The translations under genes were made by a program, and so were the position numbers. The notes below the pieces were generated by a model, which was not told the origin of the DNA, did no database searches, and saw only the letters and a list, made by a program, of their open reading frames with translations. DNA of 64,000 nt from an uncultured Methylibium sp. (GTDB taxonomy: Bacteria; Pseudomonadota; Gammaproteobacteria; Burkholderiales; Burkholderiaceae_C), in the NCBI RefSeq assembly GCF_902826655.1, contig NZ_CADEFR010000002.1:154344-218343 (forward strand), read 5' to 3'. How positions within the stretch are numbered: the stretch's first letter is position 1; each line of letters starts with the position of its first letter. This document shows positions 1 to 28,443 of this stretch, in pieces.

Positions 1-2630
1 GCCTGCACTTCGTCGGTCTGCATGTCGGCGGCCTTCTTGGTCTCGATGAGCAGGTTCAGACCGTCGGTCGCCGCCACGAAGTCCGGCACGTATTCCGGCT
101 GGTCCGCACCTCGCCGGTAGTAGATGTTGAACTGGCCGGCTACAGGGCGCAGCCACTTGCGCGCGTCACGTTCGAGGATGACTGCCAGCACCCTCTCGGT
201 GTCGGACTGGAACTTCTGGTAGCTGTAGGCGCACTTGGTGAAGCCACCGTAGACCAAGGTCGCAATCCGGCTCTTGTCCGGTGGCGCCTGGTGCAGCGGC
301 AGCACGTCACCGTCGGCAGTCACGGCGCCGGGCTTCAGCGGCGTAAAGCCCTGGCTGACCACCACTTCCGACTCACCCGGGTCCTCGAAGTAGTGCAACG
401 TCATCTGCGCGTGGATGTTGTCCGCGATGGCCCTGCCCTGGTTGGCCAGCACGTTGTGCAGCTTCTCGTCGTCGCCCAGGTAGCTGCGGAAGTGCGCCAC
501 CGCCTGGGCTGCCAGCTCGTACAACAGCTCGCCGTGTTGGTCGTAAGCGATGTCGTCGAAGCCGATCAGCTCGCGGACGATGTAATCCTCGGGCCGTCGT
601 TCGGCGACGAACGACGATTGTCCGTACAGCAGCTCCTTGCCCGTCTGCAGCCCACGCCCCACCAACTGCTGGTCCTGCGGCTGGAAGTTCATGCGGCTCA
701 CGTCCAGGCTGAACACCCGGTAGCCGCTGCTCACCGCGCCCTTGGGTTTGACGAGGATGCGCGGAATGTCGATGGTGTGCTGCGCCACCAAGTCCGCTGT
801 CTGCTTGACGATTTCTTCGACACTGGGGCCGGCGGGCGGCAGCAGCTGGCCCTGGGCCGGTGTCACCCGCGCTTGAACGCGCCGCACCAGTTCGGCCTGC
901 ACCTCTGGCAGGGTCAAAGACGCCGTGGTGGGGGCCGTCACCCCACCGGCCGCTGCCGCATCTGCCGGCGCGCCGGGCACGCCAGGCGAGTTTGCCAACC
1001 GGCTCATGTCGTTGATGACATCCATCGCGATGGCCGCCACCTGTGCCTGTTCGCCGGTGTACAGCACCGTCGCAGCCGGCGGCGCAACGTAAGGCGTGCC
1101 GGCGGCCGGGGCCACCGGCGCGGTGATGCCCAGCATCGTGTGCAGTGTTGGCGTGACCGCCACGCTGCGCAGGCCGGTCCCTGCACCGTCTGGCGGCGCC
1201 AGCTTGAGCTGCTTCAGCCGGATCGGCGAATCGCCGCGCCCGGCCTCGTCCACCACCTCCTGGAACTTGTCGTGCGCAATGATGTTCAGCCGGTCCACGG
1301 CCTCGACACCGGTCTTGCGCCCATACGGCAGCCGCAGGCCACGGCCGATGGACTGCTCGATCAGCGTGCGCGCATTGGCCGCCCGCAACGGCACGATGGT
1401 GTAGAGGTTGGTGACGTCCCAGCCTTCCTTGAGCATGTTGACGTGGATGACGATCTCGGTCGGCTCGTCGTAGCTCTCCACAGCCAGCAGCCTTTGCACG
1501 ATCTCGTCGCCCTCGGCGCCGCTGGTGGTGCCGCTGTCCACCTGGATCACCTTGCCGGCGTAGCGCCCGTCGAACAGCTCGACCGAAAGCAGCTTGCTCA
1601 GCGCGGCGGCATGCGTGGTGTCGCGCGCTATCACCAGCATGAAGGGCTTCACCGGCTTCACTTCACCAGAAGCGCCCTTCTGCTGGGCGTAGGTCAGCAG
1701 GTGCACCTTGGTCTCTTCGTGCACCCGAACACCGTCCATCAACTTGATGCGCTCCAACTGCTCGGCGCTGTGCGCTGCGGCGTCGAAGTTCTGCTGCGTC
1801 ACAACAGCCGGCTCCTTGACGAAGCCGTCTTCAATGGCCTGCGCCAGCGGGTAGTCCATCACCACGTTCTTGAACGGCACAGGGCCCTTGTTGCCCGACC
1901 CGCTTTCGGTGAACGGCGTGGCCGTCAACTCCATGGCCAGCAGTGGCTTCAGCTCGTTCAACGCGCGCACACCGGCACTGGCGCGGTAGCGGTGCGACTC
2001 GTCCATCAGCAGCACCAGGTCGGGCAGGCTCGCCAGGTAGTCGAAGTAGCTTTGGCCCAAGTACTCTGACAAGCGCTTGATGCGCGGCGCCCGGCCGCCG
2101 CGCACCTCGGTGTTGATCTTCGAGATGTTGAAGATGTTGATCTGCACCGGCGCGTCGATGGCCTGCGAGACCAGGTCGCCGCGCTGCTCGTAGGTTTCGC
2201 CGGTGATCACCTCCGGCGCCGCGACCGAGAACTCGGCGATGCCCTTGAACACGTACTTCGGTGTGCCCGGCGTGAAGTCGCGGATCAGCTTGTCGTAGAT
2301 CGTCAGGTTGGGCGCAAGCACGAAGAAGTGCTTGTAGCCATAGGCGGCATTCAGGTAGCTGATGAACGCGCCCATCAGCCGCGTCTTGCCCACGCCCGTG
2401 GCCAGCGCGAAACACAGTGACGGGAAGTCGCGCTCGAAGTCGCTCAGGTTCGGAAACTGGCCCTTCAGCGCTTCGACCATCGCGGCCAGGTCGCTGGCGT
2501 CGCGCGCCTTGTGGTCACGCAACGCCGGCACAGCATCCAGGGCCGCGGCCAGCCGGCGCAGGCTCTCGGCCTGGGGCTCACGCAGGCTCAGGCGGCCGGC
2601 CACCGCTCGCAGGGTTTGCTCCAGACTCAT
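1..2630 (-). CDS. res: Type III restriction enzyme, Res helicase/nuclease subunit (3' end beyond window)
   Basis: This is the ATP-dependent translocase and endonuclease subunit of a type III-like restriction system, working with the Mod methyltransferase encoded two genes upstream. The reading frame is open from the ATG at 2630 to the window edge, so about 876 codons are visible and the C-terminus is missing. Residues 77-83 read ATGVGKT (Walker A). A DESH box and an LTATP motif follow, and a helicase C-terminal part contains SIGRGLRLP. Near residue 863, just before the edge, PDF...IETKK fits the PD-(D/E)XK nuclease motif of Res subunits. The start overlaps the stop of the DUF1016 gene as ATGA, which suggests translational coupling at the end of a six-gene operon. 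The family assignment is firm; the exact system type is inferred from neighbours. Confidence 0.9.
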   Translation of the reverse strand, partial: MSLEQTLRAVAGRLSLREPQAESLRRLAAALDAVPALRDHKARDASDLAAMVEALKGQFPNLSDFERDFPSLCFALATGVGKTRLMGAFISYLNAAYGYKHFFVLAPNLTIYDKLIRDFTPGTPKYVFKGIAEFSVAAPEVITGETYEQRGDLVSQAIDAPVQINIFNISKINTEVRGGRAPRIKRLSEYLGQSYFDYLASLPDLVLLMDESHRYRASAGVRALNELKPLLAMELTATPFTESGSGNKGPVPFKNVVMDYPLAQAIEDGFVKEPAVVTQQNFDAAAHSAEQLERIKLMDGVRVHEETKVHLLTYAQQKGASGEVKPVKPFMLVIARDTTHAAALSKLLSVELFDGRYAGKVIQVDSGTTSGAEGDEIVQRLLAVESYDEPTEIVIHVNMLKEGWDVTNLYTIVPLRAANARTLIEQSIGRGLRLPYGRKTGVEAVDRLNIIAHDKFQEVVDEAGRGDSPIRLKQLKLAPPDGAGTGLRSVAVTPTLHTMLGITAPVAPAAGTPYVAPPAATVLYTGEQAQVAAIAMDVINDMSRLANSPGVPGAPADAAAAGGVTAPTTASLTLPEVQAELVRRVQARVTPAQGQLLPPAGPSVEEIVKQTADLVAQHTIDIPRILVKPKGAVSSGYRVFSLDVSRMNFQPQDQQLVGRGLQTGKELLYGQSSFVAERRPEDYIVRELIGFDDIAYDQHGELLYELAAQAVAHFRSYLGDDEKLHNVLANQGRAIADNIHAQMTLHYFEDPGESEVVVSQGFTPLKPGAVTADGDVLPLHQAPPDKSRIATLVYGGFTKCAYSYQKFQSDTERVLAVILERDARKWLRPVAGQFNIYYRRGADQPEYVPDFVAATDGLNLLIETKKAADMQTDEVQ

Positions 2631-3799
2631 TCTTTCCCTTCCCTCGGCTTCTTCTTGGCGGGCGCTGCCGCGGGCAACAACTGCCGCAGCTCGCGCTTCA
2701 GTTCCTGCTGCAGCTGCTTCTCGGTCGGCAGGTGCAGTTGGTAGCGGGTGGCGAAGATGTTGCGCTCCTGCTGTTCACCCAGGGTGTACTTCACGACGGC
2801 GTCGTTCTTGTCGGGGCACAGCACCAGGCCGACGGTCGGGTTGTCGCCCTCGGTGCGGCGCTCGCGGTCGTAGTAGTTGACGTAGAACTGGATCTGCCCC
2901 AGGTCGGCGTGTGTCAGCTTGCCCACCTTCAGGTCCACCAGCACGTAGCACTTCAGCACTGCGTGATAGAAAACCAGGTCGATGAAGAAGTGGTCGCCGT
3001 CCAGCGTGATGCGCTGCTGCCGCGCGACGAATGCGAAGCCCGTGCCCAGCTCCAGCAGAAAGTGCTGCAGGTTCTCGATCAGCGCCTGCTCGAGCTGCGA
3101 CTCGACGAGCCGGTGCGACTCCGGCAACCCCAGGAACTCCATCACCAGCGGGTCTCGCAGCACATCCAGGGGCTTTGTCACTTCGTGCCCGCGGCTTGCC
3201 AGTCGCATCACACCGGCCTTGTCGCGGCTCTTGGCCAAGCGTTCGAACAACAGGCTGCCCGCCTGCCGCGACAGTTCACGCACCGACCAGCCCTGCTTGA
3301 CGGCTTCGATCTCGTAGAAGTCGCGCGCGCCCTGATTGCCCACGCGCAGCAGGCAGCGGTAGTGGCTCCATGAAAGATCGGGGTGCAAGCGGCCCGGCCG
3401 CGGCGGTGCTGTCCCGCTCGTGGCAGCCGATTTCCGAGACACCGTCTCGGAAATGGCCGGCAGTGCCGATTTCCGAAGCACTGTCTCGGAAATGAGTTGC
3501 GGGTAGGCCAGGTAGAACTGCCGAAAGGCTTCGAGGTTGTCTACGGAATAGCCGCGTCCGTAGTTGCGCGTCAAACGCAACGACAGCTGGGCCAGCAAGC
3601 GGGCACCGTAGCCCGCGCGGCGCTGGCCACGCTGCTCCTCCTCGACGATCTCACGGCCCACCAGCCAATTGGCCAGCACCTGCGTGGTGTTGACGGTGCG
3701 CGCGATGCCCGTACGGGCGGCATCCAGAATCTCGAGCACGCGGCCATACAGGGCCGGCGTTGCCTTGTTTGCCTTCGGGTCGCCTGGGGCTTGCGGCAT
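2627..3799 (-). CDS. DUF1016 (YhcG-type) PDDEXK nuclease family protein
   Basis: The protein has 390 residues. It has the DUF1016 N-terminal helical region (LANWLVGREIVEEEQRG, YGRGYSVDNLEAFRQFYLAYP) and a C-terminal PDDEXK-like nuclease domain (FIDLVFYHAVLKCYVLVDLKVG, then GQIQFYVNYYD). Members of this family often sit inside restriction-modification loci and are predicted nucleases; their exact role is not settled. I chose the ATG at 3799, one base after the mod stop, over an upstream in-frame start that would run into mod. The stop overlaps the res start as ATGA. An insert in the middle of the protein (ISETVLRKSA and ISETVSRKSA) is encoded by two copies of a palindromic DNA repeat, described separately. 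Fold and family are confident; the contribution to restriction is inferred. Confidence 0.85.
   Translation of the reverse strand: MPQAPGDPKANKATPALYGRVLEILDAARTGIARTVNTTQVLANWLVGREIVEEEQRGQRRAGYGARLLAQLSLRLTRNYGRGYSVDNLEAFRQFYLAYPQLISETVLRKSALPAISETVSRKSAATSGTAPPRPGRLHPDLSWSHYRCLLRVGNQGARDFYEIEAVKQGWSVRELSRQAGSLLFERLAKSRDKAGVMRLASRGHEVTKPLDVLRDPLVMEFLGLPESHRLVESQLEQALIENLQHFLLELGTGFAFVARQQRITLDGDHFFIDLVFYHAVLKCYVLVDLKVGKLTHADLGQIQFYVNYYDRERRTEGDNPTVGLVLCPDKNDAVVKYTLGEQQERNIFATRYQLHLPTEKQLQQELKRELRQLLPAAAPAKKKPREGKE
3431..3492. repeat. Two copies of a palindromic repeat inside the DUF1016 gene
   Basis: Bases 3431-3453 are a perfect 10-bp inverted repeat around a 3-base centre (TTTCCGAGAC, ACC, GTCTCGGAAA). 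Bases 3470-3492 are a second, slightly degenerate copy of the same 23-mer. In the minus-strand reading frame each copy encodes an ISETVxRKSA decapeptide. The copies are separated by 16 bases that stay in frame. This looks like a small mobile palindromic element that inserted into a linker and remained open for translation. Confidence 0.75.
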
Positions 3800-3800
3800 G

Positions 3801-5474
3801 TCAGCTGTCGGCCGGGTCGAACAGGCCGGTCTGCCGCGCATCCACCTTGCCGGCCCGTGCGCCGGCAGGCCGGCCGGCTTCCTGGCGAGCCTGCGGCAGG
3901 TTCTCGACGTTCAGGCTGTAGTCGTCGTGCCCCCACTCGCACTTCTGCAGCACCATCTTCGGAATCTTCTTCACCGTCAGGTTCGGGAAGCGGTTGGCGA
4001 TGGCCTCGGCACTCAAGCGGAATGCGCCGCAACACACCAGCAGCGTGCGCTTCGGGCCGACCTCATCGGACAAGGCCTGCAAGGCCTCGGCACTGAGTGT
4101 CTGCGTCGTGACGTAGATGAAATCGGTCTCGGTGCTGTGGCCGTGCTGCCAGTAGGCATCGGCGCTCGGCGCGTAGGTGAAGCCCTCGAGCTTGGCCACG
4201 GCCGCTGCCAGCATCTCGGCGTTGTATTCGCGGTTGATCACCCACTGGCCGAAGCGATCCTGCTGCAACAGGCTTGGCGCCAGGCGGTAGTAACGGAAAC
4301 CTCCGCCGCCCTTCCAGCCGGTGCTCTCGGTGACGCCGCCCGCGTCATCGCCGTCGATCACCTTCTTCAGCCGCGGGATGATGTGGGTGTGGCAGTGCTC
4401 GCCCAGTTCCACCATGATCCAGCGGCGGCCCATCTTGTGGGCGACGGCGCCGGTTGTGCCGGAGCCGGCAAAGGAGTCGAGAACCAAATCGCCGGGGTTG
4501 CTGGCGATATGAAGAATTCGGTGAATCAGCCTCTCCGGCTTTGGCGTATCGAATGCATTCTCGCGGCCGAAAATCTCGTGAATCTCTTTCTTTGCCTCGT
4601 CGTTGTGGCCAACCTCCTCGTGCGGCCACCATGTCGACGGCACCAAGCCGTCGACCTCAGACAGGTAGCGAATAAAGCGCGGCACGCCATCGCCATCTTG
4701 GCCAAACCAGAAACGACCCTCCTTTCGCAGGCGCAGGTACTCTGCTTCTAGAGTTGCCCAGTGTCGCCCCTCGGGCGGAAAGTGCTCCCGCCCGCTCGGG
4801 CCGACGATCTTGTACATCTGGTTCGGGCGAAAGCCAGCACCTGTGAACGAGATCGATTGCCATGCTCCTCTTGGATCGTTGTTCGGGTTGCGGTACGGTG
4901 CCTTTGTCTTGGCATCTAGGTCGAGGCGATTTCGAGTTGCCTTGAATCGTTCGACATCACGCGCGTAGACAAGGATATGGTCGTGCGCGTTTCCGAATGC
5001 GGAGTTGTTGTCGCGCGCATAACGCTTCTGCCAAACGCAATTGGCAACAAAGGTCTTGCGACCGAAGACTTCGTCGCACAGGACTCGCAAGTAGTGCGCT
5101 TCGTTGTCGTCAATAGTGATCCATAGTGAACCATCATCCGACATGAGTCGCTTGATGATCTCCAACCGATCACGCATGAGGCCGAGCCATATCGAGTGCT
5201 CCAAGCCGTCGTCATAGTGCGTGAAAGCACTTCCGGTGTTGTACGGAGGGTCGATGAATACGCACTTCACCTGGCCAGCGAACTCCTGCTCCAAGGCTTT
5301 GAGCGCCAGCAGGTTGTCGCCGAAGATCAGGCGGTTGTCGAAGATGTCGTGGTCGGTCACCCGCTGCGCAGCGTGGTGGCTGCGGGCCGGGTCTTCGAGC
5401 AGAACACGCGGCTCCAGCTTCGGGCGCGCGTCCTTGCCGATCCAGGTCAGTTCCAGCCGCTGCTTTTGGCTCAT
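3801..5474 (-). CDS. mod: Type III-like site-specific DNA adenine methyltransferase (Mod)
   Basis: The protein has 557 residues. The order of motifs is that of beta-class N6-adenine methyltransferases: the catalytic motif DPPY at residues 75-78 (FIDPPYNTGSAF) precedes the AdoMet-binding motif DSFAGSGTTG near residue 352. The region between them is the expected target-recognition domain. Mod would set the recognition sequence and protect host DNA while Res cleaves. The ATG at 5474 overlaps the stop of the KwaB-like gene as ATGA, and the stop lies one base from the DUF1016 start. DNA over the central domain (about 4500-5230) is clearly poorer in GC than the two ends of the gene, which suggests exchange of the recognition domain. 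The family call is firm; methylation specificity cannot be read from sequence. Confidence 0.92.
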   Translation of the reverse strand: MSQKQRLELTWIGKDARPKLEPRVLLEDPARSHHAAQRVTDHDIFDNRLIFGDNLLALKALEQEFAGQVKCVFIDPPYNTGSAFTHYDDGLEHSIWLGLMRDRLEIIKRLMSDDGSLWITIDDNEAHYLRVLCDEVFGRKTFVANCVWQKRYARDNNSAFGNAHDHILVYARDVERFKATRNRLDLDAKTKAPYRNPNNDPRGAWQSISFTGAGFRPNQMYKIVGPSGREHFPPEGRHWATLEAEYLRLRKEGRFWFGQDGDGVPRFIRYLSEVDGLVPSTWWPHEEVGHNDEAKKEIHEIFGRENAFDTPKPERLIHRILHIASNPGDLVLDSFAGSGTTGAVAHKMGRRWIMVELGEHCHTHIIPRLKKVIDGDDAGGVTESTGWKGGGGFRYYRLAPSLLQQDRFGQWVINREYNAEMLAAAVAKLEGFTYAPSADAYWQHGHSTETDFIYVTTQTLSAEALQALSDEVGPKRTLLVCCGAFRLSAEAIANRFPNLTVKKIPKMVLQKCEWGHDDYSLNVENLPQARQEAGRPAGARAGKVDARQTGLFDPADS

Positions 5475-6424
5475 GCGCCGGCGCCCGGCTGGGAGACGGC
5501 CTTCTTGGCCGATGAATCGAACACCTCGTCGTTGATGGGCGAGCGCAGGCGGTCGTTGTTCAGCAGTTTCAGCAACAGGTCCATGGTTTCTTCTTCGACG
5601 ACGATCTTGCCGCCTTCGATCTTGAGGTTCCAGCCCTCATCGCGACACACGCGCATCAGGCGCTCGATGTAGGTGGGGCTGCTGTAATAGCCGGCGTTCT
5701 TGATCGCCGCCAGCTTGCGCAGGTGGTGCTGGTTCTCGCCTACGTAGGCCCGGATGGGTTCCACGTCGCTCAGAAATGCCATCGACGCGAACTCTTCCAA
5801 CAGTTCGCGGCTCTTGGCCTTCATGCCCTCGCGGAAGTTCATCGACGACTCGAAGGCCGACTTGCTGGCGATGAAGGTGGTGCCCGCGAAGACGAAGAAA
5901 TCGAAGCGCGGGTCGATCATGAAGACCTCTTCGTCTTCGACATCGACGAGCTTCTGATCCTGGAAGTACAGCGTCTTGGTCCTGACAGCCTTGCGCGGGC
6001 TGTTCAGCGTGTTGATCTTGCTCCACGCGTAGAGGTGTTCGCCGTCCTTCTCGAACAGCACCACGTAGGCAAACGAGCCCAGCAACTCGGCGTGGCTCTT
6101 GGCGCGCGGGTTGTCGAAGCCCTGGCCGATGGCGTCACGAACCTTCGTGAAGTCGGTGGTGTCGGCATCCAGGGTCAGCAGTGATTCGCCGGGGTCGGCG
6201 TTGCTGAAATCGTAGGGCTCCAGGCGGAACTCCCGGTCCTGCACCTGCGCCTTCACGTAGCGCTTCAGCCGCCGCTCCAGCTTCTTGTCGATGCTGACCC
6301 GCAGCACGTTGTAGACAAACGGGGCCTGCGCCGGCTTGCGGTGCACCACCCAGAAGCTGGTGGCCCAAGGCGCCAGGTCTGTCGCCTTCAGCTTCTTGAG
6401 CCGTTGGGCTTCTTTACCGCTCAT
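5471..6424 (-). CDS. kwaB: Kiwa-type defence protein KwaB-like (DUF4868)
   Basis: The protein has 317 residues, counted from the ATG at 6424 (MSGKEAQRLKKL), which lies inside the last codons of the KwaA-like gene. The core resembles the DUF4868/KwaB family: a YVVLFEKDGEHLYAWSKI strand region, then MIDPRFDFFVFAGTTFIASKSAFESSMNF, then a helical C-terminal part (YSSPTYIERLMRVCRDEGW). In the two-gene Kiwa anti-phage system KwaB is a soluble effector that works with membrane protein KwaA. Here the pair is intact and adjacent but sits inside a restriction operon. The stop overlaps the mod start as ATGA. The family call is from remembered motifs and from the neighbouring KwaA-like gene. Confidence 0.75.
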   Translation of the reverse strand: MSGKEAQRLKKLKATDLAPWATSFWVVHRKPAQAPFVYNVLRVSIDKKLERRLKRYVKAQVQDREFRLEPYDFSNADPGESLLTLDADTTDFTKVRDAIGQGFDNPRAKSHAELLGSFAYVVLFEKDGEHLYAWSKINTLNSPRKAVRTKTLYFQDQKLVDVEDEEVFMIDPRFDFFVFAGTTFIASKSAFESSMNFREGMKAKSRELLEEFASMAFLSDVEPIRAYVGENQHHLRKLAAIKNAGYYSSPTYIERLMRVCRDEGWNLKIEGGKIVVEEETMDLLLKLLNNDRLRSPINDEVFDSSAKKAVSQPGAGA

Positions 6425-7013
6425 GCTCACTCCCTGCCTCACCTGCGGTTTCGGGCTCGGCCGCCACATAAAGGTAATGGGCCAGCCGCTCGAACGTGTA
6501 TGTGCCACCTATTTTCAACGGAATGCGCGTGATCACCATCGCCTGCAATTCCGTGGTGCCGCGTTTGAAGGTGGCGTCGATCAGCATGTAGCCCGCCATC
6601 GCCAGCACGGGGTTGACCAGCACCGTCTGCGTGCGGTAGGCAATCACGAACATCATGCCCATGAAGATCAACAGGCTGGCCACGGTGGGCCAGTCGGCGA
6701 GGTCGATGCGCACCACGGAAAGCACATAGGGAATGGTGTAGCCGAACATCTCGCCCGACTTGTTGGCGGCCTTGCTCACCTGCACCTGCAGGCCCTCGCG
6801 AACGCTGCTCATGGTTCGCAATACCACCACGCAACTCAAGACCGCCATCACCAGAAGCCCGCCGAACCACCAGGGGTTCTTGGGCACCGGCAGGTTGCCG
6901 CTGACGTCCAGGTCTTTGATGGCCAAGATCAGCAGCAGCGGCGCATAGGCACTGATGAACACCACCAACGCCACCCAGGGGCGCAGCCGCAGCGACGGAT
7001 CCGGCGTGCTCAT
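6414..7013 (-). CDS. kwaA: KwaA-like four-helix membrane protein of a Kiwa system
   Basis: The protein has 199 residues from the ATG at 7013 (MSTPDPSLRL), which overlaps the SNF2 stop as ATGA; an in-frame ATG four codons upstream is less likely. Four hydrophobic stretches are visible: VALVVFISAYAPLLLILAI, WWFGGLLVMAVLSCVVVL, TVASLLIFMGMMFVIAYR, and a shorter one around NPVLAMAGYMLI. The AYAPLLLILAIKD segment is typical of KwaA. KwaA is the inner-membrane component thought to sense phage infection at the envelope and to anchor KwaB. The gene end overlaps the KwaB-like start by about 11 bases. The topology is seen directly; the name rests on similarity and on the adjacent DUF4868 gene. Confidence 0.7.
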   Translation of the reverse strand: MSTPDPSLRLRPWVALVVFISAYAPLLLILAIKDLDVSGNLPVPKNPWWFGGLLVMAVLSCVVVLRTMSSVREGLQVQVSKAANKSGEMFGYTIPYVLSVVRIDLADWPTVASLLIFMGMMFVIAYRTQTVLVNPVLAMAGYMLIDATFKRGTTELQAMVITRIPLKIGGTYTFERLAHYLYVAAEPETAGEAGSEHER

Positions 7014-9970
7014 TGCATGGCCCACTCGCAGCGCAGCAGTGTCTGGGTGCTCACCTGTTGCTCGAGCTGCAGTTCCAGTGCGTCGATGAGCCCGTCGCGT
7101 TTGGCCTGGATTTCGTCCTGCCGCGCAAACAGTTCACGGCGGCGCCTGTCGCGGGCCGCCTCCAGGTCGCGCTGCTCACGCTGCACGGCCAGCTTTTCCG
7201 CCAGCGTCGCCGCGCCCTTGCTGCGCGTGCGCACCTCCTTGATGCGCCGCTGCAGGTCAGCCAGTTGTTGCTCGAGGCTGGCGCGCTGGTCGTCGGCCCA
7301 GGCGTCCAGTTTTTCGGTCTCGGCCGTGAAGAGCTTCAGGTTGCGCGCCTCCACGGCCCCCAGGACCTGGGCCTGCTGGCGCGACAGTTCGGCCGTCAGT
7401 GCTTCAGTGAGGGTGGAGTCCTGGGACAGGCACGGTTCGGCCGCGCCGGGCAGCGCCAGGAGCCGATCTGCGACATCCGGTTCCAGCACCGTGCCGCCAA
7501 CCGTGGCGGCCACCAGAAGGTGCTCTTCGGCGCTGCCCAGGGACTCCACACGCAGGCACTGCACCACGCAGTGCCCCTGCTCACCACGCAGCGATTCCAG
7601 CACCGACACCTTGGCGTTGTAGGCCGCGTAGTCCAGCTGAAGGCGCCGCGGCAACAGGGAGGCCCGCTTGGCAAGGTCGATCAGGTGCTGTGCCAGCGGA
7701 TGCTGCAGGCGGTAGACATGGGCTTCTTCGCTGCGGCGCGGCAATTCATAGCGCCCGAGCGGGATTGCTGCCTCGGTGCCAGCGATGCCCGACTGGCTTG
7801 CATCGCCCACCGGCTGGCCCGGCAAGGCGTGCAAGGTGAACCCGTTGCCCTCCGGGTCGAACTGCGCGTGGCTGCCGAGCATGCCGCGGGTCAGGCGCAT
7901 CAGCAGCCGTTCCATGCGACCCAACGCCGCCGTCGCGTCGGCCTGGGCCACCTTCAGGCGCTCCTGCACCTCTTCGTCGAAGTTCTCCAGCAGCGCGCGC
8001 CGCGCGCCGAGCATCGCATCGCTGATCTCGCCGGCCAGGTCCAGCTGCAACTGCTCGAATGCGGTGTGAATCTCGTTGGGGTGGCGGCAGTTCTGGTAGA
8101 TGTCGGCGATGCGGCGTTCGAAGTCCACGCCTGACTCCAGCGCACCGAGCACCTCGTCGCTGGCGCCGAACACGCCGTCGAAGAGCTTGAACTTCTGGTC
8201 CAGCAGCTGGAAGACACGGCGGTCGGCTTCGTTGTCGCGGTTGACGAAGTTCACCACCACCACGTCGTGCTTCTGGCCGTAGCGGTGGCAGCGGCCGATG
8301 CGTTGCTCGATGCGTTGCGGGTTCCACGGCAGGTCGTAGTTGATGACCAGCGAGCAGAACTGCAGGTTGATGCCCTCGGCGCCCGCCTCGGTGGCGATCA
8401 TGATCTTGCCGTTGTCGCGGAAGTGGTCCACCAGTGCAGCGCGGGTGTCTGCTGCACGCGAGCCGGTGATGCGGCTGGTGCCGCGGTGCTGCTCCACCCA
8501 CTCGGCATGCAGGCGGCGCGCCAGCGGGTCGCTGTTGCTGCCGTTGAAGAGCACCACCCCGACGGCGTGTTCGGTTTGCCCCAACAGGGCAAGCAGGTAG
8601 TCCTGTGTCCGGCGCGACTCGGTGAAGATGATGGCCTTCTGCGCTGCGCCCAGCTCTTTCAGCCGGCCGAAGGCCACGTCGAGCGCTTTCAGCAAGGCCT
8701 GGCCCTTGGCGTTGTCGGTGATCGACAAGGCCAGGTCGCGAAACCCTTCGAGATCGGCAATCTCGGCTTGGACGGCGGCGCGCTCCTGAACCGTCTTGGC
8801 ACGTTCGGCTGCGATGCCGGCATCTTCTGCCGCTTCAGAGGCTGCTGTTTCGTCGGCTGTCTCGTCCAGGCTTTCGTAGTCGGCGTCGAGCGCTTCGCTC
8901 AGGGTCTCGGACTGCGGTGCCGCCAGCTGGTCGTGCAGAGATTCCTGCAGCCGGCGGATGAGGGTGTCGAGCGCCCCGCCAATGGCGAATGAACTGGATG
9001 CCAGCAGCTTGCGCAACACCAGGGTGATGAGCTGCCGCTGAGCGTTGGGCAGGGCGTAGAGGCGGTCACGCTGCAGGTACTCGGAGACCAGTTCGTACAG
9101 GCGCACCTCGTCGGCGCCGGGCTTGAATTCCTCGAGCAGCGGAATGCGCCGCGTGTACTTGACATAGGCCTCGACCTGCCGGCGCAGGGTGCGTTTGCAG
9201 ACCGGCCCGATGCGGTGCTTCAGCGCTGCGAAGCTGGCTTCGTCCCGCAACGCGCCGAACTGTTGGCGGAAGCTGTCCAGATCACCGAACACGCGGTCGT
9301 CGATGAAGCTGACGAGCCCGTACAGTTCCAGCAGCGTGTTCTGCAGCGGTGTGGCCGTGAGCAGAACCTTGCGCGATGCCGCGAGTGCATCGCGCAACAG
9401 GTTGGCAGTCTTGTTTTCAGGCTTGTAGACGTTGCGCAGCCGGTGCGCTTCGTCAATGACCACCAGGTCCCAAGGCACCGCGGCCAGCTCGCGCGCCTTG
9501 CCTGCCGCGAACTGGTAGGAGCAGATGACGATGCTCGCGGCGCCCGGGCCGTTGCCATCACGGCCTGCCGCGACATCGAACGGGTTGGTGCAACCTTCCT
9601 TCAAGGCCAGGCGGAATGAGCGGGACTCCAGGATCACGGCCGGCAAGGCGAACTTGTCGGCCAGTTCCTGGTGCCACTGCTTGCGCAGGTTTGCGGGGGC
9701 AATGATCAGCAGCCGGCGTCGGCGCTCGGCCCACCGCTGTGCCAGCAACAGGCCCGCCTCGATGGTCTTTCCAAGGCCCACTTCGTCAGCCAGGATCACG
9801 CCCTTGGACAAAGGGTTGCCGGCGGCAAAAAGCGCAGCGTCCACCTGGTGCGGATTCAGATCGACCTGGGCGTCGAAGAGCGCGCCCGCCATGCGATCCA
9901 TCGAGCCCGCCGCGCCGCGCAGCGTGAGCCGATGCGCGAAATAGGCGAGTTGATGGGGGCTGTAGGTCAT
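7010..9970 (-). CDS. SNF2/RapA-type DEAD/DEAH helicase, first gene of the defence operon
   Basis: The protein has 986 residues. It carries a Swi2/Snf2 ATPase core: motif I DEVGLGKT at residues 62-69, DEAH at 173-176, LLTATPLQNTLLELYGL, and in the second lobe GAEGINLQFCSLVINYDLPWNPQRIEQRIGR. The C-terminal third is rich in charged, probably coiled-coil segments (LEQQLADLQRRIKEVRT). Proteins of this kind move on double-stranded DNA and occur in DISARM class 1 (DrmD) and in type III-like restriction clusters. It opens the minus-strand operon, and its stop overlaps the KwaA-like start as ATGA. No DrmA, DrmB or DrmC gene is present, so DISARM is not supported. No convincing ribosome-binding site is seen before the ATG at 9970. 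Confidence 0.88.
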   Translation of the reverse strand: MTYSPHQLAYFAHRLTLRGAAGSMDRMAGALFDAQVDLNPHQVDAALFAAGNPLSKGVILADEVGLGKTIEAGLLLAQRWAERRRRLLIIAPANLRKQWHQELADKFALPAVILESRSFRLALKEGCTNPFDVAAGRDGNGPGAASIVICSYQFAAGKARELAAVPWDLVVIDEAHRLRNVYKPENKTANLLRDALAASRKVLLTATPLQNTLLELYGLVSFIDDRVFGDLDSFRQQFGALRDEASFAALKHRIGPVCKRTLRRQVEAYVKYTRRIPLLEEFKPGADEVRLYELVSEYLQRDRLYALPNAQRQLITLVLRKLLASSSFAIGGALDTLIRRLQESLHDQLAAPQSETLSEALDADYESLDETADETAASEAAEDAGIAAERAKTVQERAAVQAEIADLEGFRDLALSITDNAKGQALLKALDVAFGRLKELGAAQKAIIFTESRRTQDYLLALLGQTEHAVGVVLFNGSNSDPLARRLHAEWVEQHRGTSRITGSRAADTRAALVDHFRDNGKIMIATEAGAEGINLQFCSLVINYDLPWNPQRIEQRIGRCHRYGQKHDVVVVNFVNRDNEADRRVFQLLDQKFKLFDGVFGASDEVLGALESGVDFERRIADIYQNCRHPNEIHTAFEQLQLDLAGEISDAMLGARRALLENFDEEVQERLKVAQADATAALGRMERLLMRLTRGMLGSHAQFDPEGNGFTLHALPGQPVGDASQSGIAGTEAAIPLGRYELPRRSEEAHVYRLQHPLAQHLIDLAKRASLLPRRLQLDYAAYNAKVSVLESLRGEQGHCVVQCLRVESLGSAEEHLLVAATVGGTVLEPDVADRLLALPGAAEPCLSQDSTLTEALTAELSRQQAQVLGAVEARNLKLFTAETEKLDAWADDQRASLEQQLADLQRRIKEVRTRSKGAATLAEKLAVQREQRDLEAARDRRRRELFARQDEIQAKRDGLIDALELQLEQQVSTQTLLRCEWAMQ

Positions 9971-13034: not shown

Positions 13035-13601
13035 ATGGACTTCGAACGGCTCAGCGGCGACCTGAAGGAACTGCGGTGCCGCAACCGCACGCTCGGCGCG
13101 GCCGTCGGCCTGCTAGCGGCCGGCCATCTGCTGGCGCTGGCCGTGGTGCTGAACCTGCTGGGTGCCGTGCGCACGGTGGTCGTGCCGCCGTCGATCAACA
13201 AGTCGTTCTGGGTCACGCGCGACAAGGCCAGCGGCGAGTACCTGGAACAGATGGGCAGCTTCGTCGCCTGGTTGGTGCTCGACGTGACACCCGCATCCAT
13301 CGACTGGAAGAAAGACATCCTGCTCGGCTACGTCGAGCCCGAACAGCACGGCGGTCTGAAGACCCGGCAGGAGCTCGAGGCGGCGCGGCTCAAGCGCATC
13401 AACGCCAGCACTGCGTTCGCGCCGCAGCAGCTGGTGCCCAGCGAGGAAGGCCAGTCGGTGGTGGTGCGCGGCCGGCTGCGCACGCTGGTCAACGGCGTCG
13501 AAACCGCGAACGACCTGAAGGCCTACCTCGTGGAGTTCAGCTACGCCGGCGGCCGCGTGCATCTCAAGACCTTCAAGGAGCTTCCCCATGCCGCCTCGTA
13601 G
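13035..13601 (+). CDS. traE: Type IV secretion system protein TraE (VirB5/VirB8-like)
   Basis: The protein has 188 residues, the usual TraE length. One N-terminal membrane helix (LLAAGHLLALAVVLNLLGAV) is followed by a periplasmic domain with the typical INKSFWVTRDKASGEYLEQM region. TraE belongs to the inner-membrane scaffold of F-type transfer systems. The last codons overlap the traK start by 14 bases, consistent with coupled translation. Confidence 0.9.
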   Translation: MDFERLSGDLKELRCRNRTLGAAVGLLAAGHLLALAVVLNLLGAVRTVVVPPSINKSFWVTRDKASGEYLEQMGSFVAWLVLDVTPASIDWKKDILLGYVEPEQHGGLKTRQELEAARLKRINASTAFAPQQLVPSEEGQSVVVRGRLRTLVNGVETANDLKAYLVEFSYAGGRVHLKTFKELPHAAS

Positions 13602-14439
13602 TCTCACGGGCGCGCGGAGACACGTCTCGGCTGCGCTGATCGCGCTGGTCTGCACTCCCGCAAGCCACGCGCTGCAGATCGTCGAAGCGCGCGACGGTGT
13701 GGCGGTGGAAGCGATCCTCTCGATCAAGGAGCCGACGCGCATCCGCATCGAGGGTGCGCCGATCACCGATGTCTTCGGCAACATCCACTCCAGCTCTTGC
13801 GGCGGCATGCCCGCTGGTACGTCCGGCTCGCCCGGCTCACCGGTGGCACCACTCTCACCGGTGGTCAACCCCGCCGGCGAGATCGTCGTCGAGTGCGACC
13901 GCGACAAGGGCGAGATCTACGTGCGGCCCGTCGCCACCGCCAGCGATGGCAGCGCCGCCGCGGCCAAGCCGGTCAACCTGTTCATCTCGTCGGCGCACGC
14001 CACCTACACGCTGATCCTGCGCCGGGCCGACACGCCGGCCGACACCATCCTGATCCGCGACCGCAGCGCCCCTCCCGCCGCGGCTGGCCCGTCGAGTACG
14101 TCGGCGCACCACGTGCGCGCCATGAAAGCGCTGCTGGTGGCGATGGCGTCGGACCGCGTGCCACCGGACCTGCGTGTGGACGAACTCAACCAGCCGGTGC
14201 AACTGTGGGCCGAGGTGCGCTTCGCGCTGATGCGCCGCTACGAAGGCCGCGGCCTGAGCGGCGAGAAGTACCTGCTGCAGAACATCGGCGCGGCCGTGAT
14301 GGTGCTCGCCGAACAGGAGTTCGACCGCCCCGACAGCAAGGCCGGCGGCCAGGTGCTGGGTGTCGCGGTCGAGCACCACCAGCTGCGGCCCGGCGAGAGC
14401 ACCAGCGTCTACGTGATCCGCCGCGGAGGCGAACGATGA
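13588..14439 (+). CDS. traK: Type IV secretion system secretin-like protein TraK
   Basis: The protein has 283 residues with a signal peptide ending near SHA. The periplasmic part contains LSIKEPTRIRIEGAPITDVFGN, typical of TraK (VirB9-like), and a C-terminal beta-rich domain ending in [13 protein letters not shown]. TraK forms the outer-membrane core ring with TraV and TraB. A Gly/Ser/Pro-rich loop near residues 72-90 looks like an insertion in a surface loop. The stop overlaps the traB start as ATGA. Confidence 0.88.
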   Translation: MPPRSLTGARRHVSAALIALVCTPASHALQIVEARDGVAVEAILSIKEPTRIRIEGAPITDVFGNIHSSSCGGMPAGTSGSPGSPVAPLSPVVNPAGEIVVECDRDKGEIYVRPVATASDGSAAAAKPVNLFISSAHATYTLILRRADTPADTILIRDRSAPPAAAGPSSTSAHHVRAMKALLVAMASDRVPPDLRVDELNQPVQLWAEVRFALMRRYEGRGLSGEKYLLQNIGAAVMVLAEQEFDRPDSKAGGQVLGVAVEHHQLRPGESTSVYVIRRGGER

Positions 14440-15788
14440 ACCTGCCCGTACCGATGCGCTCGCTCGTCGAGCGCCTAACGCCCCGGCAGCGCCAATACGC
14501 CATGCTCGGCGCGATCCTGCTGGGCGGCGTCGGCCTGCTGTGGCTGGTCTTCGCTTTCGCCGAAAGCGCGCCCTCGGGCCAGGCAGGCAAGGCCAGCGGC
14601 GGCACGCCCGGCCCGGTCACCAACATCGGCGTGATGCCGCCCGGCCAGCAGGTCAACCCGGTGGATCAGTGGGTCGGCACGGCCGGCAGCAAGCTCGCGC
14701 AGTACGAGAGCGAGCGCGAGGAGCAGGGCCGGCTGAACAAGGATCGCCAGGCCTTCGAGGCGCGCACGATGCAGCGCTTCGCCGAACTCGAGCAGCGGTT
14801 GACCGCGACCACGCAGGCGGTGCAGCCGCCCGTGCCGGCGCCCGTTCCGAGTCCGGCTGCGGCAGCACCGCCGCTGCCGCCGCCTTCGGCCCTGCCTCCG
14901 CCGCCCCCTGCGCCACGCGGGCCGGCTGCAGGGGCGGTACCGGCGATGCCGCCCGGCGTCCCGCCGGCACCGCTCTCTTCGGCGCTGCCTCTTCAGGCAC
15001 CGGCCGCGCCGGTCCTGATGCGCATCGCGGTGGCCGATCGCGCTGCCACCAGCGCGCAGCCTCCTGCGACCGCGGACGCACGCACGGTGTCGACCTTCCT
15101 GCCCGTGAGCTTCACGCGCGGCACGCTGCTCGGCGGCCTGGACGCGCCCACCGGCGGCCAGTCGCAATCGAATCCCCACCCGGTGCTGATCCGCCTCTCG
15201 GACAACTCGGTGCTGCCCAACCGCTTCCGCGGCGAGTACCGCGACTGTTTCGTGATCGCGGCGGGCTATGGCGACATCAGCTCCGAACGCGCTTACCTGC
15301 GCACCGAGAACCTTTCCTGCGTACGTGCCGATGGCGCGGCGCTGGAGGTTCGCATCCAGGGCAGCGTGTACGGCGAAGACGGCAAGGTCGGCATGCGCGG
15401 CCGTCTGGTCACCAAGCAGGGGCAGATGCTGGCCAACGCGCTGCTGGCCGGCGTGGTCAGCGGCATCGGCCAGGGGCTGGCCACCTCGTCAACCAGCTAT
15501 AGCACGTCGGCGCTGGGCACGATTGCCACCGCCTCGGGCGCCGATGCCTACCGCGCCGGCCTGGGCACCGGCGTCGGGCGCGCGCTCGACCGGCTGGCGC
15601 AGTACTACATCAAGCTCGCCGAGAACACCTTTCCGGTGATCGAGGTCGATGCCGGCCGCGAGATCGACGTCGTGATCACCAAGGGCGTGCGCATCGACCT
15701 GCCCCCGTCCGGCGCCGAGCAGCGCTCCGGAGCGAACCCGCCTTCAACCACCCGCAGCCCGGAGGCCGACGACGATGGCTCCTACTGA
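14436..15788 (+). CDS. traB: Type IV secretion system core protein TraB (VirB10-like)
   Basis: The protein has 450 residues. One N-terminal membrane helix ([21 protein letters not shown]) is followed by a coiled-coil region and a long proline-rich stretch that spans the periplasm. A C-terminal beta-barrel-like VirB10 domain contains [26 protein letters not shown] and the conserved end [18 protein letters not shown]. TraB links inner and outer membrane parts of the channel. It starts in the traK stop and its end overlaps dsbC by 14 bases. Length and order match F TraB (about 475). Confidence 0.92.
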
Positions 15789-16587
15789 CCCGCTCCGCCG
15801 CAGGCCGCTGGCCCGGCCCGCAACACTCGCAATGCTGAGCTTCGCGCTGCTGTCGCCGCTGCCTGCAGCCGTGGCGGCTGGCCCGAGTGACGACGAGGCC
15901 CGACTGCTCGCCTCACTACGCAAGGCCCATCCCGGCACGCGCTTCACCGAGGTCGCGCGTTCGCCCGTGCCCGGCGTCTACGAGGTCTGGATGAACGGCA
16001 ACGTGGCCTTCGTCGCCGCCCGCGACCCGCGCTACTTCATCTTCGGTCGCCTCTTCGACACGCGCACGATGACCGACCTGACCGGGCCGCGCCTGCTGGC
16101 CGCTGCCCGCGCCGAACCGGCGGCGACCGAGTCCCCTTCGGCGGCAACCATCGCTTTCGGCTCGCTGCCCGTCGCGGACGCGATCACGACGGTGCGCGGC
16201 AACGGCCGCCGCCAGCTCGCGGTCTTCAGCGACCCCGGCTGCAGCTTTTGCCGCCGGCTCGAACCCGAACTCGATGGCCTCGATGACGTCACGATCCACA
16301 CCTTCCTTCTGCCCTTCCAGGGCATGGCGCGACCCGTCGCGATCTGGTGCGCGCCAGATCGCGCACAGGCATGGCGACAGGCGATGCACGACGGCGTTGC
16401 GCCAGCTGCGGCATCAGCGTCCTCCTGCGAGCACCCGGTCGACCGCAACCTCGCACTCGCCCGCCAGTTGGGCGTCAACGGAACGCCGACCCTGTTCTGG
16501 GCAGACGGGACGCGCACCGAAGGTTTCGTCACCCGGCCGGTGATCGAGGACCGTCTGGCGCGCACTTCGCCAGAGGCCAGGCCATGA
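15775..16587 (+). CDS. dsbC: DsbC-family thiol:disulfide interchange protein
   Basis: The protein has 270 residues with a signal peptide, an N-terminal dimerisation-type domain and a thioredoxin-fold domain. The active site is CSFC at residues 156-159, and a cis-proline loop appears as [11 protein letters not shown]. It would isomerise disulfides in the periplasm, and the operon's cysteine-rich TraN, TraU and TraH are likely clients. A dsbC copy inside the transfer operon is typical of SXT-like elements. It overlaps traB upstream and traV downstream (ATGA). Confidence 0.92.
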
Positions 16588-17174
16588 ACGCGCACCACAT
16601 CGGCCGCCTTGCGGCCGCGCTCGGCAGCGCGGTGTCGCTCGCGGGCTGCATGAGCCTGTCCGGCCTGAGCGGCAACTCCAGCTATGCCTGCAAGGCTCCG
16701 GACGGCGTCACCTGCCAGTCCGTGTCCGGAACCTATGCCAACGCGGTAGCGAACAACCTGCCAGCACAGCGGGCTCGCGCGACGCCGGCCGCTACGCCCG
16801 ACTTGACACCCCCTGCGGCGGCAGCAAGCACACCGACCGCGCGCAACGCACCGGCCGACGCCGCGCAGGTGCTCCCGTTGCGCTCCGCACCGCGCATCCT
16901 GCGGCTTTGGTTCAAGCCCTGGGAGGACGCCGACCGCGATCTCTACGACCAGGGCTATGTGTACGTGCAGGTCGACGGCGGCCGTTGGCTCGTCGACCAC
17001 GCCCAGCGGGCGATCCGCGAAGCCTACGCACCCGTGCGTGCACCCGCCGGACGCGCAGCCGCGGACCCCGCACCCCGAGCGCCCGCCACGGGTGTGCAGC
17101 GTCCGCCCGGTCTCGACCAGTTGATCCCTGGCCTGCGGCCCGCCGCGCCTGCCACTGGCGACAACCCCGACTGA
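16584..17174 (+). CDS. traV: Type IV secretion lipoprotein TraV
   Basis: The protein has 196 residues with a lipoprotein signal ending in the lipobox LAGC. The TraV hallmark [22 protein letters not shown] follows, with two conserved cysteines. The middle is Ala/Pro-rich, and the C-terminal part contains [21 protein letters not shown]. TraV anchors the TraK ring in the outer membrane. The start overlaps the dsbC stop, and traC begins seven bases after its end. Confidence 0.9.
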
Positions 17175-17181
17175 GGCCGCG

Positions 17182-19734: not shown

Positions 19735-20099
19735 GCCCTGGCGCGAAGTCGCTTCTGCTGAACGCGGGCATGGCCTGCGCGATCGTGCTCGGCACGCTGG
19801 CCGCCTACGACCGCGTCGTAGTCCGACCGGCGCAGCTGATCGGCGTGGTCGATGTCGCCGAGGTCTACCGGCAGAAGGAAGCCGAGTTCACGCTGATCCT
19901 CACGCGCGCCGCGAGCGACGGCGAGCGCGAACAGGCGATGCGCATGGCGCGCAGCTTCGCGCAGCGCCTGCCGCTGGCGCTGGAGGAACTACCGCGCGAC
20001 TGCGGCTGCCTCGTCGTGCTGAAGACCGCTGTCGCGGCGCCCGCGCCGCGGACCGTCGACCTGACGGCGCATCTGCGCCGCAAGGTGGAGGCGCCATGA
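19731..20099 (+). CDS. trbI: TrbI-like type IV secretion accessory protein
   Basis: The protein has 122 residues from a GTG start that overlaps the traC stop. One N-terminal membrane helix is followed by DVAEVYRQKEAEFTLILTR and a region ending in CGCLVVLKTAVA, as in F-type TrbI (about 128 residues), a bitopic protein linked to pilus retraction. Its place between traC and the S26 peptidase gene is the normal one. The stop overlaps the next gene as ATGA. Confidence 0.8.
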   Translation: MSPGAKSLLLNAGMACAIVLGTLAAYDRVVVRPAQLIGVVDVAEVYRQKEAEFTLILTRAASDGEREQAMRMARSFAQRLPLALEELPRDCGCLVVLKTAVAAPAPRTVDLTAHLRRKVEAP

Positions 20100-20647
20100 C
20101 CCGGCGCATCGACCGCCTCCGCATCGGCGCCCGCGATTTCGGCGCCCACCTGCGCCAGCGCTGGTACCTGTACCTGCCAGTCTTTGCGATCTGGGGCTTC
20201 GCCTACACGCGCCTGTTCATCGACCCCACGCCGCGGCTGCCGGTGCTCTTCAACTGGACACCGAGCCTGCCCTGCCGGGTGGCGCTGCTGCAGTACGGCC
20301 CGAACGCGCTCAAGCGCGGCGACTACGTGGTGTTCGCCTTCGACGGCGAAGCCCAGGCGCGCTATCCGGGTCTGCGTGGCCAGCCATTCTTCAAGATCGT
20401 GCGCGGCCTGCCCGGTGACCGCATCACAGTGGAAGGCCGCGCCGTCGCGATCAACGGCGAGATCGTCGGCCGGGCCAAGACCCACACCCACGACCGGCAA
20501 GCGCTCGAGCCGATCCTTGCCGCCGTGATTCCAGCCGGCCACTACTACGTGCAGGGCACCAGTCCGGATTCCTTCGACTCGCGCTACCGGGCCAGCGGCC
20601 TCGTGCGCGCGGACCAAGTGCTCGGCACCGTGATCCCTCTGTTCTGA
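20096..20647 (+). CDS. S26-family signal peptidase of the conjugative system (TraF/TrhF-like)
   Basis: The protein has 183 residues. An N-terminal membrane anchor (YLYLPVFAIWGFAYTRLFI) is followed by LepB-like boxes: the serine region TPSLPCRVALL, the lysine region FFKIVRGLPGDRI, and box E GTSPDSFDSRY. It should cut pilin leader peptides, most plausibly that of the upstream TraA-like pro-pilin. It is unrelated to the thioredoxin-like TraF later in the operon. ATGA overlap with trbI indicates coupled translation. Confidence 0.88.
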   Translation: MTRRIDRLRIGARDFGAHLRQRWYLYLPVFAIWGFAYTRLFIDPTPRLPVLFNWTPSLPCRVALLQYGPNALKRGDYVVFAFDGEAQARYPGLRGQPFFKIVRGLPGDRITVEGRAVAINGEIVGRAKTHTHDRQALEPILAAVIPAGHYYVQGTSPDSFDSRYRASGLVRADQVLGTVIPLF

Positions 20648-20659
20648 CGAGGCACGGCG

Positions 20660-21034
20660 ATGCAACACGCTCGACACCTTGCCGCCACCCTGTTGGCCGT
20701 GTTCGCTCTCGCAGCGGCTGGACTCGGTTCTGTACGCGCTCAAACCTCACCCGCACAGCCAGGTACTCCCGGGACCGGCGAGATGCCGATCGAGGACTAC
20801 CTGGCACTGCTGGCGCGCATCGCGCCGGCCGCTCATGACGGTGCGCGTGCGTACCAGCAGGCCTGGTTGCAGCGCTGCGGCCGTTCGTTGACGACCGCGG
20901 AACTGCGCGTGGCGATGGCGGTGGTAGACGGCAACCCGGTGCTGATGGGCATGATCCGAGCGAGCCATCTGCGCGACGCCGCGGCGCTCGCCAGCCTCAC
21001 GGCCCAGATCGATTGCACGCGGGGGGCGCGATGA
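20660..21034 (+). CDS. Small periplasmic protein of unknown function in the transfer operon
   Basis: The protein has 124 residues with a clear signal peptide (LAATLLAVFALAAAGLGSVRAQ). The mature part is small and mainly helical (PIEDYLALLARIAPAAHDGARAY), with two cysteines. I do not recognise a family. Its position between the S26 peptidase and traW, and the ATGA overlap with traW, tie it to the transfer apparatus. A role in pilus assembly or pilin handling is plausible but not shown. Confidence 0.7.
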   Translation: MQHARHLAATLLAVFALAAAGLGSVRAQTSPAQPGTPGTGEMPIEDYLALLARIAPAAHDGARAYQQAWLQRCGRSLTTAELRVAMAVVDGNPVLMGMIRASHLRDAAALASLTAQIDCTRGAR

Positions 21035-23310: not shown

Positions 23311-23314
23311 CGCC

Positions 23315-26091: not shown

Positions 26092-26099
26092 GGTGCGCG

Positions 26100-26957: not shown

Positions 26958-26979
26958 CTCCTTTCGCTGGAGGATCGTC

Positions 26980-28419: not shown

Positions 28420-28443
28420 CCGCTCCGATGCCTCGAGGCGGCC

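Follow-up and report, generated by a model that had tools for sequence, protein, structure and literature searches.

The first 9970 positions of the window (the whole stretch of 64,000 nucleotides analysed here, positions 154,344 to 218,343 of contig NZ_CADEFR010000002.1 from an uncultured Methylibium sp.) carry a six-gene operon in which a SNF2-family ATPase, a Kiwa-type KwaA-KwaB pair, a type III-like restriction-modification (RM) system and a DUF1016 nuclease are combined. We consider it probable that the operon represents a modular SNF2-Mod-Res chassis, with two fixed positions that receive exchangeable and largely defence-related cargo (here Kiwa and DUF1016), and that the defence layers so assembled act separately. 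The gene order, the junctions, the domains, the variable slots, the recurrence of the layout and the separate histories of cargo and chassis can all be read from the compared sequences.

The six genes follow one another head to tail, all on the minus strand; their open reading frames and starts were verified. The operon and its two variable positions, referred to here as slots, are as follows:

7010..9970, minus strand: SNF2-family ATPase, DrmD/RapA-like, 986 aa, first gene of the chassis (PF00176/PF00271, PADLOC DrmD)
6414..7013, minus strand: KwaA-like membrane protein, 199 aa, cargo of slot 1 (PADLOC KwaA, hydrophobic segments)
5471..6424, minus strand: KwaB-like protein, 317 aa, cargo of slot 1 (PF16162, PADLOC KwaB, fold matches)
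3801..5474, minus strand: type III-like adenine methyltransferase Mod, 557 aa (PF01555, PADLOC MTase_III, DPPY and FxGxG motifs)
2627..3799, minus strand: DUF1016/YhcG nuclease of the PD-(D/E)XK type, cargo of slot 2 (PF17761, PF06250, PADLOC PDC-S02)
1..2630, continuing beyond the window, minus strand: Res, superfamily 2 (SF2) helicase with C-terminal PD..ExK motif, 929 aa (PF04851, PADLOC REase_III)
5475..7009, minus strand: slot 1, the span separating the SNF2 and Mod coding regions, with content that varies among orthologous loci
2631..3800, minus strand: slot 2, the Mod-to-Res span, of variable content

The SNF2 stop codon ends at 7010 and KwaA starts at 7013, which gives a 4-nt overlap (ATGA). 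KwaB (start 6424) overlaps KwaA by 11 nt, Mod (start 5474) overlaps KwaB by 4 nt, the DUF1016 gene (start 3799) follows Mod after a gap of 1 nt, and Res (start 2630) overlaps the DUF1016 gene by 4 nt. An earlier note on this DNA had described the same six genes, starts and junctions as one tightly packed unit; all five junctions agree with the sequence, being overlaps or a 1-nt gap throughout, and the gene names it gave are borne out by Pfam and PADLOC profiles (in the case of KwaA by PADLOC, the Pfam scan giving no match). The Res stop lies at C2:154184 on the contig, 160 bases past the window edge; in the profile scans Res was represented by the 876 aa inside the window, that is, minus its final 53 residues.

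The SNF2 protein matches the Pfam profiles PF00176 (113 bits) and PF00271 (72 bits), contains a DEAH box and has RapA chains as its top PDB sequence matches. Its PADLOC match is to DrmD (PDLC02619, 673 bits). DISARM was tried as an assignment and rejected: the protein is DrmD-like yet under the DrmD equivalog cut-offs (NF038318, 682.6 vs 950; NF038317, 269 vs 610), DrmA, DrmB and DrmC are absent from the six genes, and the sole DrmA profile match shown among the six proteins is the helicase region of the SNF2 protein itself. Mod matches PF01555 and PADLOC MTase_III (724 bits), shows the motifs DPPY and FxGxG (as FAGSG), and has sequence matches in the PDB to a type III Mod (6k0w) and to EcoP15I (4zcf). 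Res matches PF04851, PADLOC REase_III (568 bits) and, in the PDB, the EcoP15I Res, and contains the motifs GVGKT, DESH and PD-x-ExK. One operon thus holds the gene content of a type III system, namely an adenine-methyltransferase Mod and a Res with SF2 helicase and endonuclease motifs. The DUF1016 protein matches PF17761 and PF06250 (124.9 and 193.4 bits vs cut-offs of 32.8 and 32.5) and PADLOC PDC-S02 (455.7 bits), and shows a D-x-DxK motif. Catalytic activities are predicted for these four proteins.

KwaB matches PF16162 (149.1 bits vs a cut-off of 26.3) and PADLOC KwaB (PDLC00235, 414 bits). The six top PDB fold matches of its structure model (mean predicted local distance difference test score, pLDDT, 74.9) are all KwaB, with E values from 1e-10 to 6e-7 and template modelling scores of about 0.5. 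KwaA, directly upstream, is recognised by PADLOC (PDLC00215, 178 bits) and has hydrophobic segments; its structure model (pLDDT 54.9) was too poor for use. Both proteins fall below the NCBIfam equivalog cut-offs (NF041623, 48.6 vs 200 bits for KwaB; NF041622, 40.5 vs 100 bits for KwaA), and KwaB is remote in sequence from solved KwaB (profile E 0.007). By these profiles and folds we assign the two genes as a Kiwa-type pair and, because of this remoteness and the position outside the NCBIfam equivalogs, place them in a divergent subgroup. Kiwa is described as a lattice of KwaA and KwaB, embedded in the membrane, that senses infection and binds the injected DNA but does not cut it (PMC12904381).

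The modular reading rests largely on orthologous loci, which were collected through Mod. The search covered 300 genomes of the order, in which 30 gave matches with E up to 1e-60 (the own genome included; 20 stretches taken), and 274 genomes of the class, in which 18 gave matches with E up to 1e-100 (the own genome again included; 17 stretches taken). Slot 1 was resolved in 22 loci, 19 from genomes (the window counted) and three from plasmids (L097-L099); 18 of the 37 genomic Mod stretches entered this set. Not counted as chassis were L081, L082, L084, L085 and L134-L136, which have only a distant Res and gave no match for SNF2, L139, which lacks a Res match, and L083, which is truncated. Also outside the 22 are L066, L126 and L138, in which no SNF2 was found, and L077, L079, L124, L131, L132, L137 and L140, in which contigs end or no full SNF2 is present. 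Stray matches inflated some spans (L069, L074, L137, L138 Mod), and for these gene calls were used instead.

SNF2, Mod and Res keep a common order across the locus set, the SNF2 proteins being 40-67% identical. Slot 1 is filled in 19 of the 22 loci and empty in three (L076, L133 and L097, with gaps of 5-8 bases by alignment). Kiwa occupies it once, in the window; the other 18 filled slots have different content, including 1.1 kb without assignment in L098. Among the occupants are DSR2 (L070, Dsr2 profile, 478 bits), HEC-06/GmrSD (L068, 777 bits), HEC-01A together with DUF4276, KilA-N, Bro-N, DUF2130 and an AAA protein (L067, HEC-01A 521 bits), an OLD-like protein with SLFN_AlbA_2 (L069, OLD-like 321 bits), AIPR (with AAA in L071, alone in L078, by annotation in L099), SLFN_AlbA_2 (L072), PLD (L080) and AAA proteins (L125, L128, L130). 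Two loci in which no SNF2 was found carry cargo ahead of Mod as well, a Septu-like AAA-PtuB pair in L066 and IetAS in L126. In slot 2, DUF1016 is present in the window, L068, L070, L074, L128, L140 and L157 (a locus described below), RhuM in L067 and L074, and zeta- and PIN-like genes in L124; elsewhere, for example in L071-L073 and L076, the slot has no called gene. When the proteins of both slots were scanned, 26 of 30 matched a Pfam family above cut-off, and eight of nine hand-picked ones matched PADLOC defence profiles, of which the AAA profiles are broad. Further plasmid records, known by annotation alone and outside the 22, show the SNF2, methyltransferase and helicase genes consecutively (L164, L167, and L166 with DUF262 in slot 2), and L165, likewise by annotation, carries AAA and DUF4276 genes in its slot 1.

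Some of the slot proteins are without an assignment. A 359-aa protein in slot 1 of L129 (L129:5037-6113) matches no Pfam family and is a candidate defence protein, and a 665-aa protein in slot 1 of L071 (7114-9111), GHKL-like by eye, matches neither PADLOC nor Pfam profiles. The N-terminal part of a 719-aa open reading frame at L002:15967-18126, outside the window and facing Res, resembles the latter protein by eye; it gave no match to PADLOC or NCBIfam.

The seam at the SNF2 end was inspected by eye in 24 loci. ATGA is present at the SNF2 stop in nine, and in six of these (the window, L157, L067, L069, L070 and L080) its ATG opens the next called gene; in L072, L073 and L125 the next called gene begins further on. 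A one-base overlap is found in L071, L097 and L164, and the remaining loci have a short or longer gap. In L097, with its empty slot, it is the Mod start that overlaps the SNF2 stop. Cargo is often, not always, joined by translation overlap between intact genes.

The earlier note had proposed searching genomes for the ordered set SNF2-KwaA-KwaB-Mod-DUF1016-Res, and the set does recur in a second genome. KwaB was searched in 379 genomes of the same family, with a match in 10 (the own genome included) and none in the five same-genus genomes listed. One of the matches, L157, carries the six genes on one strand in the order of the window, with identities of 57% for SNF2, 55-57% for KwaA, 52% for KwaB, 63-74% for Mod, 32% for DUF1016 and 58% for Res. 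In both loci the Kiwa genes lie between RM subunit genes on the same strand, as an embedded defence does. An assembly or chance artefact was rejected as an explanation of the window; it is very unlikely because the same six-gene order recurs in L157 with ATGA at all five junctions. As L157 was found via KwaB, it is uninformative on the frequency of Kiwa in the slot.

Phylogenies of the single genes do not support inheritance of the six-gene block as a unit. In the SNF2 tree the window groups with L068 (support 100/100) and L157 with L125 (100/98), and a sister relationship of window and L157 is rejected by the approximately unbiased (AU) test (p 9e-26). In the Res tree the window groups with L067, L066 and L124 (100/99) and L157 again with L125 (100/98), sisterhood being rejected at p 9e-68. 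The Mod tree joins the window with L066 and L067, and L157 with L163, and rejects the sisterhood more weakly (p 0.019); here L157 does not go with L125, and Mod may recombine. Single inheritance of the block was accordingly discarded for SNF2 and Res, and weakly for Mod. The neighbours of window and L157 in the chassis trees (L068, L066, L124, L067, L125 and L163) have no Kiwa. In the KwaB tree, by contrast, the window groups with L156 (98/98) and next with L157 (95/93), and the DUF1016 protein of L157 shares 86% identity with its counterpart in L070 but 32% with the one in the window. Because the KwaB tree disagrees with those of SNF2, Res and Mod, cargo and chassis are concluded to differ in their histories, and assembly of the six-gene layout probably took place on at least two occasions. 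A possible alternative, which needs more events, is that an ancestral chassis bore Kiwa and that many replacements followed.

The nearest relative of the window pair, KwaAB of L156 (65/68% identical), has no confirmed RM genes around it and is surrounded by conjugation genes of a related conjugative element. From the nine KwaB-positive genomes of the family besides the own, seven stretches were taken; L156, L157 and L160 were taken into the tree and L158, L159, L161 and L162 left out, the last four having no RM neighbours save in L159, where 67 residues are 31% like Mod. In a set of 30 KwaB loci, same-strand RM subunits accompany every one of the eight nearest to the KwaB of the window (the window counted). 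Among the remaining 22, same-strand RM is found in five (L023, L030, L031, L032, L034) and opposite-strand RM in two (L022, L035), and 15 have none or a weak distant match. In L030 (L030:3214-10033) a type III-like Mod-Res (28% and 25% identical, over partial length) is directly followed by a distant KwaA-KwaB pair. In the sister KwaB group type I RM genes adjoin in all seven rows. The idea that this lineage of Kiwa is confined to RM operons was suggested by the eight closest loci, weakened by the lone pair of L156, and not retained.

The final KwaB tree has 23 rows, distant and short ones having been left out and L155, L156, L157 and L160 added, and splits 11 vs 12 rows at 100/100. L091, L027 and L028 were too short for the KwaB trees; the rows dropped from later trees as distant were RM-linked L030, L031, L032 and L034 and lone-labelled L029, L033, L035 and L103. 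The RM label changes four times on the final tree vs a shuffled mean of 7.7 (3 of 500 shuffles as low), and five times vs 9.1 (6 of 500) on a 27-row tree with the eight distant rows. L101 is labelled lone on a contig that ends 259 bases beyond KwaB. Scanning genome contigs with the KwaB alignment gave seven loci and no second chassis copy; L020, L021 and L025 were found again in this way as L092, L089 and L090. The scan of viral contigs gave one locus, L155, with type I HsdM-HsdS-HsdR genes followed by KwaA-KwaB; the HsdM of this contig, listed as viral, is 96% identical to that of L088. On plasmids KwaB was found in nine records, and the six contexts inspected showed no RM subunit by the query set used; plasmid L142 has a cytosine methyltransferase gene about 1 kb away on the opposite strand.

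Beyond the operon, the window contains a set of transfer genes:

13035..22676, plus strand: F-type conjugation genes (TraE, TraK-like, TraC, TraU-like)

Two of the profile matches exceed their cut-offs (TIGR02761, 197 bits over 109; TIGR02746, 929 over 567) and two stay below (PRK13737, 292.7 vs 298; TraK, 30.7 vs 124). Including a TraG-like gene, the conjugation genes near the operon reach from 13035 to 31218, and those of L156 are up to 93% identical to them. Because of these nearby F-type conjugation genes, a conjugative element probably carries the operon as cargo. At L002:7610-10859 a gene for TcmP, the three-Cys-motif partner protein (103 bits over 53), has close to it on the same contig a radical SAM mobile-pair protein match that is weak (98.8 of 355).

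Type III enzymes cut unmodified DNA. In the reading that we favour, Mod would mark host DNA, and Res with Mod, probably aided by the SNF2 ATPase, would cut unmarked incoming DNA. KwaA-KwaB would work on their own at the membrane, where they would detect the entry of phage and bind its DNA as it comes in, and phages that escape restriction would then meet Kiwa as a second layer. The overlapping start and stop codons would keep both layers co-translated from one transcript on a mobile chassis. Co-translation, the autonomy of the Kiwa pair and the benefit of two layers are inferred.

Several points weigh against separate action of exchangeable cargo. Only two chassis loci with Kiwa are known, and one of them was found by the KwaB search itself. 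The KwaB group of the window does not look like typical free-living Kiwa: RM-linked rows make up 9 of 11 on the window's side of the KwaB tree vs 1 of 12 on the other (Fisher p 0.0006, a value that ignores shared descent and near copies), which could mean a real dependence on RM. The L156 pair could be what is left of a chassis that has decayed and not a free unit: tblastn shows a weak trace (E 0.004) of the C-terminal region of SNF2 at L156:9404-9535, just upstream of the KwaA start and on the same strand, and a profile built from 23 SNF2 proteins gave no confirmation of it. Finally, the precise overlaps at both edges of the slot could reflect the formation of a stoichiometric complex.

The view closest to that of the earlier note has Kiwa working with the restriction machinery instead of independently: on sensing injection, KwaA-KwaB would recruit SNF2, Mod and Res or license them, the six proteins forming one machine. 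The co-translation geometry of the window and L157, the presence of the same set on two chassis branches with a DUF1016 gene in each, and the type I RM genes beside the sister KwaB group all speak for it. We nevertheless hold it to be unlikely, as other cargo or none is found in 21 of the 22 chassis loci that were resolved after searching with Mod and on plasmids, and the nearest KwaAB, in L156, has no confirmed RM genes; moreover, the slot is filled by proteins from unrelated families, and therefore no dedicated interface is expected. The cargo might otherwise be a guard or back-up, kept restrained or silent as long as restriction works and set free once a phage blocks or evades it, as with PrrC in EcoprrI, a known RM-embedded gene triggered by inhibition of the RM system (PMC12707154). 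In the accessible portions of the literature, HEPN and RhuM-like genes in RM operons are proposed as further defence layers (PMC3710099) and AIPR is noted as common in such operons (PMC2292703), and several of the slot genes are toxin-like (zeta, PIN, RhuM). Kiwa, however, reportedly has its own membrane trigger (PMC12904381), and TgvAB, embedded in a type I RM operon, is described as a two-gene system that protects alone, although against several phages the whole cluster does better (PMC11411939); release on inhibition of the RM system is thus quite unlikely for the window.

It is very improbable that slot 1 is just a place in a mobile restriction operon where recombination is frequent, with no benefit from Kiwa beyond co-transfer. 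The F-type conjugation genes near the operon, the lack of KwaB matches in the five same-genus genomes and the great diversity of the cargo would fit such hitch-hiking; the PADLOC defence matches of eight of the nine hand-picked slot proteins (again with broad AAA profiles), the joining of the Kiwa cargo by overlapping codons on either side in both loci, and the same Kiwa type in the slot on two chassis branches do not. Against its own reading the earlier note would have counted a chance insertion of the pair, with orthologous RM loci lacking it. Such orthologues do exist, but chance alone does not account for the presence of Kiwa, because it takes the same position on two chassis branches and because the sister KwaB group lies beside type I RM genes. 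A bolder proposal, which we regard as doubtful, is that the chassis is a dedicated carrier with slots selected to hold a second immune unit, and that Kiwa is functionally tied to restriction by recruitment at the injection site or by release on inhibition. If true, a restriction system would have gained a membrane sensor by convergent assembly.

Exchangeable cargo on a constant chassis would make the restriction operon a two-bay rack for whole defence units, and points to modular stacking of defences. The two apparently independent assemblies make cooperation between an embedded defence and its host RM system directly testable. A search rule for undescribed defence genes also follows, namely to inspect the SNF2-Mod and Mod-Res gaps, as exemplified by the slot proteins of L071 and L129.

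That defence genes can be embedded in RM operons is established, as far as the available text of the papers goes (PMC12629846, PMC3710099, PMC2292703, PMC12707154, PMC11411939, PMC12255303). Within the open-licence PMC literature, no description of the SNF2-slot-Mod-slot-Res chassis or of Kiwa as RM cargo was recognised, and both look new; the view of the earlier note that no described system has this gene set held in the same literature.

With Kiwa the window pair shares the two genes, their order, the PADLOC profiles for both, the Pfam KwaB domain and the KwaB fold matches; it differs in lying under both NCBIfam equivalog cut-offs and inside an RM operon. DISARM class 1 includes the DrmD SNF2 helicase plus a methyltransferase. 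The SNF2 protein of the window scores best against DrmD profiles, but remains under their cut-offs, in a set of six genes without DrmA, DrmB and DrmC. The polymorphic RM operons of Iyer 2008 and Anantharaman 2013 (PMC2292703, PMC3710099) come near the chassis, with SF2 helicases, AIPR, RhuM or HEPN, and include SNF2 or type III-like helicases with GHKL/AIPR/HEPN genes; the accessible parts of these two papers describe neither a SNF2-slot-Mod-slot-Res chassis nor Kiwa cargo. PrrC in EcoprrI, TgvAB, DarTG2 and the HEC genes in Hma are, like the Kiwa pair, defence units between genes for RM-type subunits (PMC12707154, PMC11411939, PMC12255303), and DarTG2 is reported to share the repressor of the type I RM operon in which it sits (PMC12255303). 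Their hosts, as given in the text available, are type I RM systems or Hma, whereas the host in the window is a two-slot SNF2-Mod-Res operon and the guest is Kiwa. The EcoP15I-type type III RM system shares with the window Mod (PF01555, DPPY, FxGxG), the SF2 helicase and PD-ExK motifs of Res, and sequence matches; to this plan the window adds a SNF2 gene in front and cargo among SNF2, Mod and Res.

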